Below are positions 43,511 through 45,593 of a stretch of 64,000 bases of DNA, piece by piece. The translations under genes and the position numbers were made by a program. The DNA comes from Marivivens donghaensis. GTDB lineage: Bacteria > Pseudomonadota > Alphaproteobacteria > Rhodobacterales > Rhodobacteraceae. The stretch spans positions 186,001 through 250,000 of the forward strand of contig NZ_JAATOP010000004.1 in NCBI RefSeq assembly GCF_011806565.1, read 5' to 3'. Positions within the stretch are counted from its first letter, which is position 1. Each line of letters starts with the position of its first letter. The notes under the pieces were generated by a model that was given only the letters and a program-made list of their open reading frames with translations, did not search any database and was not told where the DNA came from.

Positions 43511-44301
43511 TGCTGGACGATTTTCTCATCCGCGCCATTCTGGCGGGCGTCGGTGCCTCGGTCGCGGCGAGCCTTCTGGGCTGTTTCGTCGTCTGGCGCC
43601 GCATGGCGTACTTCGGGGACGCGACCGCGCACGCGGCGATCCTCGGCGTGGCGCTGTCGCTCGCGTTCGGCTTCTCCACCCTGATCGGCGTGAGCGCTGT
43701 GGCGCTGCTGATGGCATTGTCGATCTTTGCGCTGACCAACCGCCAGATCGCGGTCGACACGATCCTTGGCGTTCTGGCGCATGGAGCGTTGGCGACCGGC
43801 CTTGTGGCGATTTCCTTGGTGCCGAGCGCACGCATCAACCTTGAAAGCTACCTGTTCGGGGACGTGCTGATCGTCGGCAAAACCGACCTCGCCGTCATCT
43901 GGATCGGCGCTGCACTAGTGGCTCTTGTTATATGGAGGCAGTGGTCGCGAATGCTGACCGCGACGCTCTCGCCAGAACTGGCCTATGCTGCGGGCATCGA
44001 TCCGAAGCGCCAACAAATCATCCTGACGCTACTCCTTGCTGCCGTGGTCGCCGTGGCCATCAAGGTGATCGGAGCGCTACTCATCACCGCGCTGCTGATC
44101 GTTCCCGCCGCGACCGCCCGCAACCTGTCGCGCACGCCCGAAGCGATGGCTTTTGCCTCTATCGGCTTCGGTGCGGCCAGTGCGGTCGGCGGGATCGGCC
44201 TGTCGTTTCAAGCCGACACGCCCGCCGGTCCATCTATCGTCGTGGTCTCGGTCGTGTTCTTTGCGGCGGCGCTGTTCGTGCGCCGCCTGCGGGGGCTTTA
44301 A
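43510..44301 (+). CDS. znuB: Zinc ABC transporter permease
   Basis: A 263-residue inner-membrane permease of the ABC-3 family with about eight hydrophobic helices. Conserved blocks are CFVVWRRMAYFGDATAHAAI near the N-terminus and VGALLITALLIVPAATARNL. It forms the Zn2+ channel with ZnuC and receives zinc from ZnuA. The start overlaps the znuC stop (TGATG), and it ends tail to tail with asd by four bases. Confidence 0.94.
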   Translation: MLDDFLIRAILAGVGASVAASLLGCFVVWRRMAYFGDATAHAAILGVALSLAFGFSTLIGVSAVALLMALSIFALTNRQIAVDTILGVLAHGALATGLVAISLVPSARINLESYLFGDVLIVGKTDLAVIWIGAALVALVIWRQWSRMLTATLSPELAYAAGIDPKRQQIILTLLLAAVVAVAIKVIGALLITALLIVPAATARNLSRTPEAMAFASIGFGAASAVGGIGLSFQADTPAGPSIVVVSVVFFAAALFVRRLRGL

Positions 44302-45353
44302 GCGGCCTGCGACGTGACCTGTTGGGCCAGCAGGTTCTCGGCAATCTGAACCGCGTTGAGCGCCGCGCCCTTCAGCAGTTGGTCGCCCGAAATGAACATC
44401 GCGATGGTCTGGCCCGTGGGGTCGATCAGATCGGTGCGGATGCGGCCGACAAGGACATCTTCAATGCCGCTTGCCTCGCAAGGCATCGGAAAGTGGTTGT
44501 TCTCGATGTCATCGACGACCCGCACACCCGGCGCATTCGACAGCTTGTCACGCACGGATTCCGGCGACACGAAGCCGTCGAAACGGACCGACAGCGCGAT
44601 GGAGTGCGCGCGCAGCACAGGCACGCGAACGCAGGTGATGCCGACAGGAAGACGGGGCAGGCCGAGGATGCGGCGCGTCTCGGCAATCACCTTGGTTTCT
44701 TCGCCATTGTAGCCCGTTTCGGGGTCGATCTCGGCGTTGTGGCTGAAGAGGTTGAAGGCCATCGGGTGCGGCATGATCTGCTGCTCGAACGGCTCTTCGT
44801 TGACGGCGGCGGCGGTCGCTTGTCGCAGCTCGTCCATCGCGGCAGCACCTGCGCCGGATGCGCTCTGATAGGTGACCATGTTCAGGCGCGTGATCGCCCA
44901 GCAGCGTTGCAGCGGTGCGAGCGCGGTCGTGGCGATTGCGGCGACACAGTTGGGGTTGGCGATTATGCCGGCGTGAGGCGCGATGGTGCCGCCGTTGGCT
45001 TCGGGCACGATCAGCGGAACGTTCGGGTCCATGCGGAACGCGGACGAGTTGTCGACCACGACTGCACCCGCAGCGACAGCCAGAGGAGCGTACTTGCGAG
45101 ACACCGAAGCACCTGCGGAGAAGAACACGATGTTGCAGCCATCGAAGCTGCGCTCGGTCAGTTCCTGAACCAGCACATCGCTGCCACGGAAGGGCAGGTG
45201 CTGACCGGCAGAGCGGGCCGAGGCGAGCAGACGCAGTTCGCCCACCGGAACATCGCGGCTTTCAAGGCAGTTGATAATTTCGATACCCACAGCGCCGGTT
45301 GCGCCGACAACGGCGATCACTGGCAAGGGTGGAATGGATTGCTGTACGTTCAT
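44298..45353 (-). CDS. asd: Aspartate-semialdehyde dehydrogenase
   Basis: A 351-residue NADPH enzyme that converts aspartyl phosphate to aspartate semialdehyde, the branch point to Lys, Met, Thr and Ile (and to diaminopimelate). The NADP loop is VVGATGAVGIEI, the catalytic Cys is in IIANPNCVAAI, and the substrate Arg/His region is VPVLRAHSIALSV. A candidate leader peptide and a hairpin precede it (45372-45593). A GGAGAG ribosome site lies before the ATG. Confidence 0.95.
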   Translation of the reverse strand: MNVQQSIPPLPVIAVVGATGAVGIEIINCLESRDVPVGELRLLASARSAGQHLPFRGSDVLVQELTERSFDGCNIVFFSAGASVSRKYAPLAVAAGAVVVDNSSAFRMDPNVPLIVPEANGGTIAPHAGIIANPNCVAAIATTALAPLQRCWAITRLNMVTYQSASGAGAAAMDELRQATAAAVNEEPFEQQIMPHPMAFNLFSHNAEIDPETGYNGEETKVIAETRRILGLPRLPVGITCVRVPVLRAHSIALSVRFDGFVSPESVRDKLSNAPGVRVVDDIENNHFPMPCEASGIEDVLVGRIRTDLIDPTGQTIAMFISGDQLLKGAALNAVQIAENLLAQQVTSQAA

Positions 45354-45417
45354 GGGTCTCTCCGGCAGGCTGGCGGGAGGAGGACGGGGAACGCTGTGAT
45401 TATCTTGCTTTCAACCC

Positions 45418-45446
45418 CGTCCGGCTCCGGCGGGGTTGGTTTCGCT
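45418..45446 (-). promoter_or_regulatory. Hairpin between leader ORF and asd
   Basis: On the minus strand the leader stop is followed by AACCCCG-N11-CGGGGTT, whose inner part (CCGG-ag-CCGG) also pairs. There is no clear U-run after it, so it is not a textbook terminator. Its position between leader and gene makes it a candidate regulatory RNA structure. Confidence 0.4.
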
Positions 45447-45535
45447 TAGATCGTGACATCCGACCACGCGAAACGCACCCCCGCCGAAGCGGTGGTCATT
45501 TTGGTGGTCATGGTTTTGTTCATCAGGATCGTCAT
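45446..45535 (-). CDS. Candidate 29-aa leader peptide upstream of asd
   Basis: An ORF too short for standard gene finding. It begins MTILMNKTMTTKMTT, in which 14 of 15 residues are Met, Thr, Ile, Asn or Lys, all derived from aspartate through the pathway in which asd acts, and then continues ASAGVRFAWSDVTI. It ends 92 bases before asd and is followed by a stable hairpin. This is the composition expected of a transcription-attenuation leader sensing aspartate-family tRNA charging. Caution: no good ribosome site is seen, and a run of A-initial codons gives such residues automatically. Not a known family as far as can be recognised. Confidence 0.45.
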   Translation of the reverse strand: MTILMNKTMTTKMTTASAGVRFAWSDVTI

Positions 45536-45558
45536 GGCGTTTGGTTAGCCGAAGAGCG

Positions 45559-45593
45559 GCGCGCAATGCAAATATTATTTTCGCATTGCGCGC
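45559..45593. promoter_or_regulatory. Long inverted repeat at the start of the asd upstream region
   Basis: GCGCGCAATGC and GCATTGCGCGC form 11-bp perfect arms around a 13-base AT-rich centre (AAATATTATTTTC). It lies between the dtd stop and the leader ORF. The AT-rich centre could hold a -10 element for asd (ATAATA on the minus strand), or the structure may terminate dtd transcription. Confidence 0.45.

Follow-up and report, generated by a model that had tools for sequence, protein, structure and literature searches.

The RNA upstream of asd in Marivivens donghaensis is, with good probability, a ribosome-mediated attenuator of this gene, with a leader peptide coded by Thr and Lys codons and an output that is most likely translational. 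The gene lies in a window of 64,000 nucleotides (contig NZ_JAATOP010000004.1, positions 186,001 to 250,000), which is the whole stretch of DNA that was analysed. An attenuation leader for asd is what the original prediction had read from the letters, and this reading is now supported by a conserved Thr/Lys peptide and by covarying alternative helices. Attenuation itself is a known process; what is new here is its combination with a probably leaderless, Thr-/Lys-coded leader and a changed output. Sequence comparison speaks for the proposal through the conservation of the peptide, the apparent promoter layout, the covariation of the predicted helices and the tie to asd or thrS.

The leader ORF is placed between dtd (46054-45602, Pfam Tyr_Deacylase) and asd, and the following features describe the gene, the ORF and its putative promoter.

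44298..45353, minus strand: asd, aspartate-semialdehyde dehydrogenase, one of two in the genome (NCBIfam TIGR01296, 363.8 bits with a cut-off of 324.2)
45446..45535, minus strand: leader peptide ORF, taken from the ORF list and conserved in relatives
45542..45548, minus strand: -10-like element CTAACCA, which would put the +1 on the A of the leader ATG (45535) or beside it, judged from the position of the hexamer and from C at -2 and -1
45566..45571, minus strand: -35-like element TTGCAT, judged from T at -36 and -35

Re-reading of the ORF bore out its description in the original prediction: it starts with ATG, has 29 codons followed by a stop, and encodes a peptide of 29 aa, MTILMNKTMTTKMTTASAGVRFAWSDVTI, in which Met, Thr, Ile, Asn and Lys make up 14 of the first 15 residues, with Leu4 as the sole exception. 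It is hence a short leader ORF with several codons for end products, as is expected of an attenuator. The G+C-rich hairpin that had been seen after the stop codon is present, with 11 pairs at 45439-45411 in its plus-strand listing, and the two absences that had been pointed out, of a ribosome site before the ORF and of a U-run after the hairpin, both hold in the window, with no Shine-Dalgarno-like sequence visible ahead of the leader ATG. The RNA from 45535 to 45354 has a predicted fold of -71.9 kcal/mol (z -4.0), and none of 200 shuffles was as low. The inverted repeat that had been described upstream of the ORF was also recovered, at 45592-45560, as a 33-base repeat with 10-base arms. Although it overlaps the -35 element, it was missing ahead of asd in L007, a relative from the same genus, and was rejected as a part of the switch; it is possibly an operator. 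The second asd of the genome (G000:C23:53484-54467) is 42% identical to the window copy, and upstream of it (L006) no comparable ORF was found, the best ORF there having 3 Thr+Lys.

The original prediction had proposed to look for the ORF in relatives, and the peptide is indeed conserved in frame before asd. All 17 loci for which upstream sequence was available, the window among them, have a small ORF at the matching place (L002 and L008 seem to be a single genome, and the incomplete L018 was left out of the count), and the leader consensus of these loci is close to M..(M).K(T)TTKTTAxAG(G). L002, in which the asd leader is present, is a Thalassococcus halodurans record (strain DSM 26915). This comparison identifies the 29-codon ORF as a conserved gene for a leader peptide, with relatives before asd or thrS in other families. 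The pN/pS ratio was 0.51 in frame vs 2.65 and 0.78 in the other frames for the 24 asd leaders of the family, a set in which L003, a metagenome-assembled alphaproteobacterium, was counted as a member; for 48 asd leaders it was 0.57 in frame vs 2.31 and 0.89. Both sets of values are to be read with caution, as the blocks were anchored on a Thr pair, which 48 of the 54 asd leaders allowed. A conserved peptide sequence would also be expected of a small protein that acts in trans, with the downstream RNA structure unrelated to it. However, the conservation is concentrated in the Thr/Lys codons and in AxAG(G), which overlap the hairpin, and the remaining C-terminal part varies, so that we consider such a protein very improbable.

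It had been cautioned that ATN, ACN and AAN codons all give residues of this kind, so that a chance run of A-initial codons would have the same appearance. This caveat is answered, because the ORF is conserved and because Thr is specific to one frame, making up 40% of the residues of asd leaders in frame 0 vs about 1% in frames 1 and 2. We also asked how often an ATG ORF of 14-45 codons with at least 7 Thr+Lys in residues 2-17 arises by chance: the window ORF has 8, and this threshold was reached in 0 of 1820 mononucleotide shuffles (20 for each of 91 asd upstream regions). Conservation across families, frame specificity and the shuffles together refute a chance origin, which is now hardly conceivable.

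How widely the element occurs was examined with covariance models. A scan of genome contigs gave 4 loci, and the wider surveys were made on whole genomes that we took to be members of the Rhodobacteraceae or of the Alphaproteobacteria. Model R1 matched 32 of 394 family genomes at E <=1e-3; strong matches (E <=4.4e-8) were found in 20 of the 394, and asd lies downstream in all 20. Weak matches (E 3.2e-5 to 8.6e-4) in 10 of 12 genomes (L040-L049) look like chance and were rejected; they fall on Asp-rich coding repeats or on unrelated hairpins, with asd by tblastn in none of the ten genomes. The weak matches in G191 and G205 and the weak second matches in G022 and G092 were left out of the reading. 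At the level of the class, R1 matched 18 of 289 genomes at E <=1e-5, and genus searches with it matched 5 of 18 and 1 of 1 genomes. A second model, R2, built from 47 sequences, was applied to three orders, where it matched 71 of 82, 6 of 10 and 10 of 17 genomes (E <=1e-5); some of the matches in these tallies precede other genes, and a few look like chance (L109, L119, L146-L149). A survey of 299 genomes across the phylum gave matches in 21 (E <=1e-6), three of them outside the class, one of which (L269) is chance-like. This survey gave 28 new loci, of which 27 were read, L256 being the place of L073, and their leaders were kept out of the statistics. L273, like L269 and the six chance loci of the R2 survey, was rejected as a match that looks like chance. 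Compared with Rfam, the window region reached the gathering score of no family.

The 115 matched loci that were classified, a set in which near-identical or duplicate loci were not all entered, comprise 71 before asd, 17 before thrS and 27 others, among which are three additional thrS leaders, leaders of other genes and matches that look like chance. The 88 leaders with a gene start (71 asd and 17 thrS) were reduced to 67 non-redundant ones (54 asd and 13 thrS). Of these, 66 were used in the swap test and in the accessibility folding described below, the choice depending on spacer length, and 48 strict representatives in the test with 5000 permutations.

Most asd genes examined have no such leader. 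The Thr+Lys threshold given above was reached by 9 of 91 asd upstream regions across the class (29 loci, 60 fetched regions, with two-asd genomes taken first among the matches listed, and the two copies of the window genome), and the true leaders L162 and L163 fall below it. Because 7 of the 9 precede an asd that is closer to the asd of the window than to the other copy in the window genome, a kind to which 19 of the 91 belong, the leader seems to be tied mainly to an extra asd, and it is this leader-bearing extra asd that would be inducible.

The upstream sequences of the 67 leaders, aligned on the leader ATG, share a layout that resembles a promoter: T is found at -36 in 53 and at -35 in 46 of them, the best -10-like hexamer begins at -13 or -12 in 41, and C occupies -2 in 50 and -1 in 59. 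A Shine-Dalgarno-like sequence precedes the leader ATG in 2 of the 67 vs 6.6 (sd 2.5) in shuffles, and is found at the starts of the controlled genes in 56 of 67, a frequency that is biased upward since the Shine-Dalgarno score was among the criteria for choosing gene starts. The lack of a ribosome site before the ORF is accounted for if, as these elements suggest, the transcript starts at the ATG. A promoter with its +1 at the start codon and no Shine-Dalgarno sequence before it are the marks of a leaderless ORF, and by these marks, which are read from sequence only, the leader ORF is probably leaderless.

Downstream of the control codons, the RNA contains a series of segments with more than one possible partner.

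45489..45496, minus strand: RNA segment 1, ACCACCGC, which holds the last Thr codons of the control region and can pair with 45484-45477
45468..45486, minus strand: RNA segment 2, CGGCGGGGGTGCGTTTCGC, which pairs with segment 3 in the predicted fold and covaries with it
45427..45445, minus strand: RNA segment 3, GCGAAACCAACCCCGCCGG, from the predicted fold and covariation
45413..45437, minus strand: 3:4 attenuator hairpin with no U-run after it, from the inverted-repeat listing and 3:4 covariation
45415..45422, minus strand: RNA segment 4, GGACGGGG, which pairs with segment 3 or with segment 5, the latter with covariation
45389-45382, minus strand: RNA segment 5, CCCCGTCC, from covariation
45382-45375, minus strand: anti-Shine-Dalgarno stretch, CTCCTCCC, which adjoins segment 5, from covariation
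45358..45365, minus strand: asd Shine-Dalgarno sequence (SD), CCGGAGAG, which covaries with segment 5 (5:SD)

The possible pairings are 1:2, 2:3, 3:4, 4:5 and 5:SD. For the last four of these, the sequences' own partners beat swapped ones, with 0 of 2000 permutations for each helix in 66 sequences and 0 of 5000 for each on 48 divergent representatives, tests that reduce but do not remove the effect of shared ancestry. For 4:5, with one representative for each region-4 variant, the own partner surpassed the average of the swapped ones in 12 of 13 variants, and compensating variants are seen in L009 (GGTCGGGG with CCCGACC), L152 (with CCCCGACC), L039 and L063 (GCGCGGGG with CCCCGCGC) and L036 (GGACAGGG with CCCTGTC). 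All eight bases of segment 1 are invariant in a 16-sequence alignment, and because the bases of the 1:2 helix are nearly invariant, this helix is drawn mainly from reading the sequence. When the 13 thrS leaders are taken alone, only 5:SD beats swaps; 1:2, 2:3, 3:4 and 4:5 do not (309, 233, 732 and 1659 of 2000 as low). The predicted 1:2, 2:3 and 3:4 helices would be mutually exclusive, with the control codons at segment 1, as ribosome-mediated attenuation demands, and 5:SD is a conserved helix able to sequester the asd SD, a feature that a translational attenuator should have.

Based on these observations, we propose the following mechanism. Transcription would start on the ATG itself or one or two bases away from it, and a ribosome would load on the 5' end of the leaderless mRNA and read the short Thr-/Lys-rich peptide. 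When charged tRNA-Thr, and probably charged tRNA-Lys, is scarce, we infer that the ribosome halts at the control codons, part of which lie in segment 1. Segment 2 could then pair with segment 3, leaving segment 4 free for segment 5, so that the asd SD would be less tied up and asd would be on. When the ribosome passes, 1:2 and 3:4 would form, segment 5 would stay with the SD, and asd would be off.

In the window, the tail after the hairpin on the minus strand, TGAAAGCAAG, has no U-run of the kind that a classical transcription attenuator has, and an intrinsic terminator at 3:4 was rejected there for this reason. Counting at least 5 T in 8 after the hairpin as a U-rich tail, such a tail was found in 2 of 24 family asd leaders, 5 of 30 other asd leaders and 12 of 13 thrS leaders, some of the thrS tails being interrupted and weak. 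Since it is absent in 22 of the 24 family leaders and present in 12 of the 13 thrS leaders, the output in the window is most likely asd translation rather than intrinsic termination. Folding weighs against this reading, as the shift that it predicts is small, and a simple model with the SD wholly hidden or wholly freed by 3:4 was rejected. The predicted accessibility of the SD (unpaired, mean of the asd sequences) was 0.44 in the antiterminator state vs 0.39, and in 37 of 53 asd sequences the antiterminator state was the one with the freer SD (Wilcoxon p 0.006). The values for the window are 0.20 vs 0.17, the two downstream helices being largely compatible there, and in the thrS sequences the difference had the expected direction in 10 of 13 (p 0.17).

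The same Thr/Lys switch might instead act through premature termination of transcription, either by Rho or at 3:4 in spite of its poor U-run. In the Rho version, a C-rich stretch after the hairpin would be freed by 3:4 and hidden by 4:5 when the ribosome stalls. Rho-dependent termination on this spacer is a serious rival. The sequence between hairpin and asd is C-rich in the family set (C 38%, G 21%), some relatives have clear U-runs after the same hairpin (L010, L032 and L067, and also L261, L270-L272, L274 and L275), and a Rho-type mechanism has been proposed for a uORF-controlled DUF1127 gene of S. meliloti (PMC12218461). However, the scarcity of U-rich tails in the family is against termination as the output, and termination alone leaves the covarying 5:SD helix unexplained, so that, taking both versions together, we regard it as less likely than not. 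In some lineages the sensor is coupled to a terminator, and in the window it is most likely coupled to the Shine-Dalgarno helix.

What the leader senses can be approached through its second target, as the same element precedes thrS in other families. Nine of 14 chosen genomes encode a shortened ThrS (profile positions from about 165 on) as well as a full-length one, and in those nine the leader precedes the shortened one (L065, L066, L069, L070, L107, L120, L122, L134 and L138); in G443 and G739 it precedes a full-length ThrS. The ThrS of L065 lacks the TGS and tRNA_SAD domains, and that of L131 has both. Because the leader is tied to thrS, often a shortened, second one, this points to tRNA-Thr charging as the signal.

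The residues themselves lead in the same direction and probably add a second amino acid. Within residues 2-16, Thr is present in 67 of 67 non-redundant leaders (mean 6.1 for asd and 5.2 for thrS), and Lys in 54 of 54 asd leaders (mean 2.3) vs 7 of 13 thrS leaders (mean 0.54; Mann-Whitney p 1e-8, with relatedness not removed). Where both leaders of one genome were compared, Lys was more frequent before asd in 7 of 7 pairs (2 residues, vs 0 or 1 before thrS). Among the further leaders of the phylum survey, Lys is found in 9 of 9 before asd and 4 of 6 before thrS, and none of the three leaders before full-length ThrS (L131, L132 and L141) has Lys in residues 2-16. Since most of the sequences behind the covariance models were asd leaders, any such leaders before asd that lack Lys may have escaped detection. 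As Thr is found in all leaders, and Lys in all asd leaders but in 7 of the 13 before thrS, Thr is, on codon content, the main signal, and Lys is probably a second signal for asd. The suggestion in the original prediction that one leader might sense many residues of the aspartate family can thus be kept for Thr, for Lys and perhaps for Met, the mean of which is 1.6 in the leaders of the window's family vs 0.5 in other asd leaders, but not for Ile and Asn, which in asd leaders are not above thrS leaders.

Alternatively, Thr alone could be sensed, the Lys (and Met) codons serving to pace the ribosome or reflecting constraints on the RNA. Thr is the only one of the residues counted that occurs in every leader, and 6 of the 13 thrS leaders do without Lys in residues 2-16; yet Lys is present in every asd leader of both sets, and it recurs in Thr/Lys-cluster ORFs of a different build before other, canonical asd genes (L180, L214, L228, L231 and L248), some of which have a hairpin and a U-run. 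SEP5 of S. meliloti too is described with Thr and Lys codons (PMC10117765). We therefore consider sensing of Thr alone a possibility of some weight that is nevertheless the less probable one, and sensing of Thr and Lys remains the reading that we prefer.

Similar leaders were noticed before genes other than asd and thrS. Thr-rich leaders of the same build precede isochorismatase-family hydrolases (L130, L133, L136, L137, L142 and L157-L159, and L267 outside the class), an assignment made by Pfam for L133 and by reading for the others. In L125-L128, MSVI..RRSRI..GG-like leaders with a U-run, before a methyltransferase-like gene in L126, form a related attenuator-like element with another peptide. 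In L143, the leader of a dihydrodipicolinate synthase family gene contains LKKSP and has a U-run; it is possibly a lysine-type attenuator. Leader-like matches also lie before GNAT acetyltransferase-like genes (L139, L140, L144, L268 and L276), assigned by NCBIfam below the cut-off for L139 and by reading for the others. A similar leader with a U-run precedes a DUF1127 gene in L072, and control of a DUF1127 gene by a uORF is described for S. meliloti (PMC12218461).

Several known systems share parts of this design. The E. coli thr leader senses Thr and Ile. T-boxes bind tRNA directly, and in ermC-type attenuators, which are induced by antibiotics and have no amino-acid specificity, a ribosome stalled on the leader ORF changes access to a downstream ribosome site. 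Like the threonine operon leader thrL of enteric bacteria (Rfam RF00506, Thr_leader), the window element has a short Thr-rich leader ORF over mutually exclusive hairpins and is proposed to sense more than one amino acid; it differs in its targets asd and thrS, in having Lys beside Thr, in being probably leaderless, in the lack of a U-run and in the Shine-Dalgarno helix, and with 13.9 bits against a gathering score of 55 (E 4.6) it is not a member of RF00506 by that test. The translational T-boxes of ileS in Actinobacteria (PMC1262725) differ from the window element in having no leader peptide. The window proposal resembles the ermC-type translational attenuators (mentioned in PMC2965389) in the part played by the stalled leader ribosome, and it departs from them in antibiotic induction and in amino-acid specificity. 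The conserved ilvB-II uORF of Corynebacterium (PMC10272879) is enriched in pathway residues and was found via an RNA motif; unlike the window leader, it has branched-chain residues and acts by transcription attenuation. The trpL leader ORF (rnTrpL) of S. meliloti is described as leaderless, with an RNA that starts with AUG (PMC10117765), and is in this respect like the window ORF; unlike it, it is a Trp attenuator upstream of trpE.

For SEP5 of Sinorhizobium meliloti, Ribo-seq and Western blot are reported to show translation of a small ORF that contains six Thr and three Lys codons and lies in the 5'-UTR of what the authors name an aspartate dehydrogenase gene; a leader peptide was suggested, and conservation was reported only in Sinorhizobium (PMC10117765). 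Like the window ORF it is thus a small Thr/Lys-codon ORF in the 5' region of its target gene, but its codon cluster lies near the 3' end of the ORF, and the account of SEP5 gives no RNA switch (PMC10117765). Likened by description only, its layout is closer to the differently built ORFs of L180, L214, L228, L231 and L248 than to the window element. Among the matches listed from open-licence PubMed Central papers, a scope outside which subscription papers mostly fall, no asd or thrS leader switch in the class was found beyond the remark on SEP5.

As a more far-reaching picture, which we offer tentatively and which as a whole we believe somewhat more likely to fail than to hold, the leaderless uORF might be an OR-gate for Thr and Lys, and in the family perhaps also for Met, that works through codon-specific stalling. 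Translation of an inducible second Asd would be switched by a segment that competes with the SD for the same partner, and the same sensor with a terminator would drive a second ThrS, the output module having been swapped in evolution.

In a number of families of the class, the element brings asd and an additional threonyl-tRNA synthetase within the range of amino-acid attenuation. Lysine is usually thought to be sensed by a riboswitch; a leader peptide that counts Thr and Lys codons would, if true, be a different solution for a branched pathway. With U-rich versions of one sensor before thrS and some asd genes, and U-poor versions before asd in the family of Marivivens, moves of an attenuator between transcriptional and translational output become testable.
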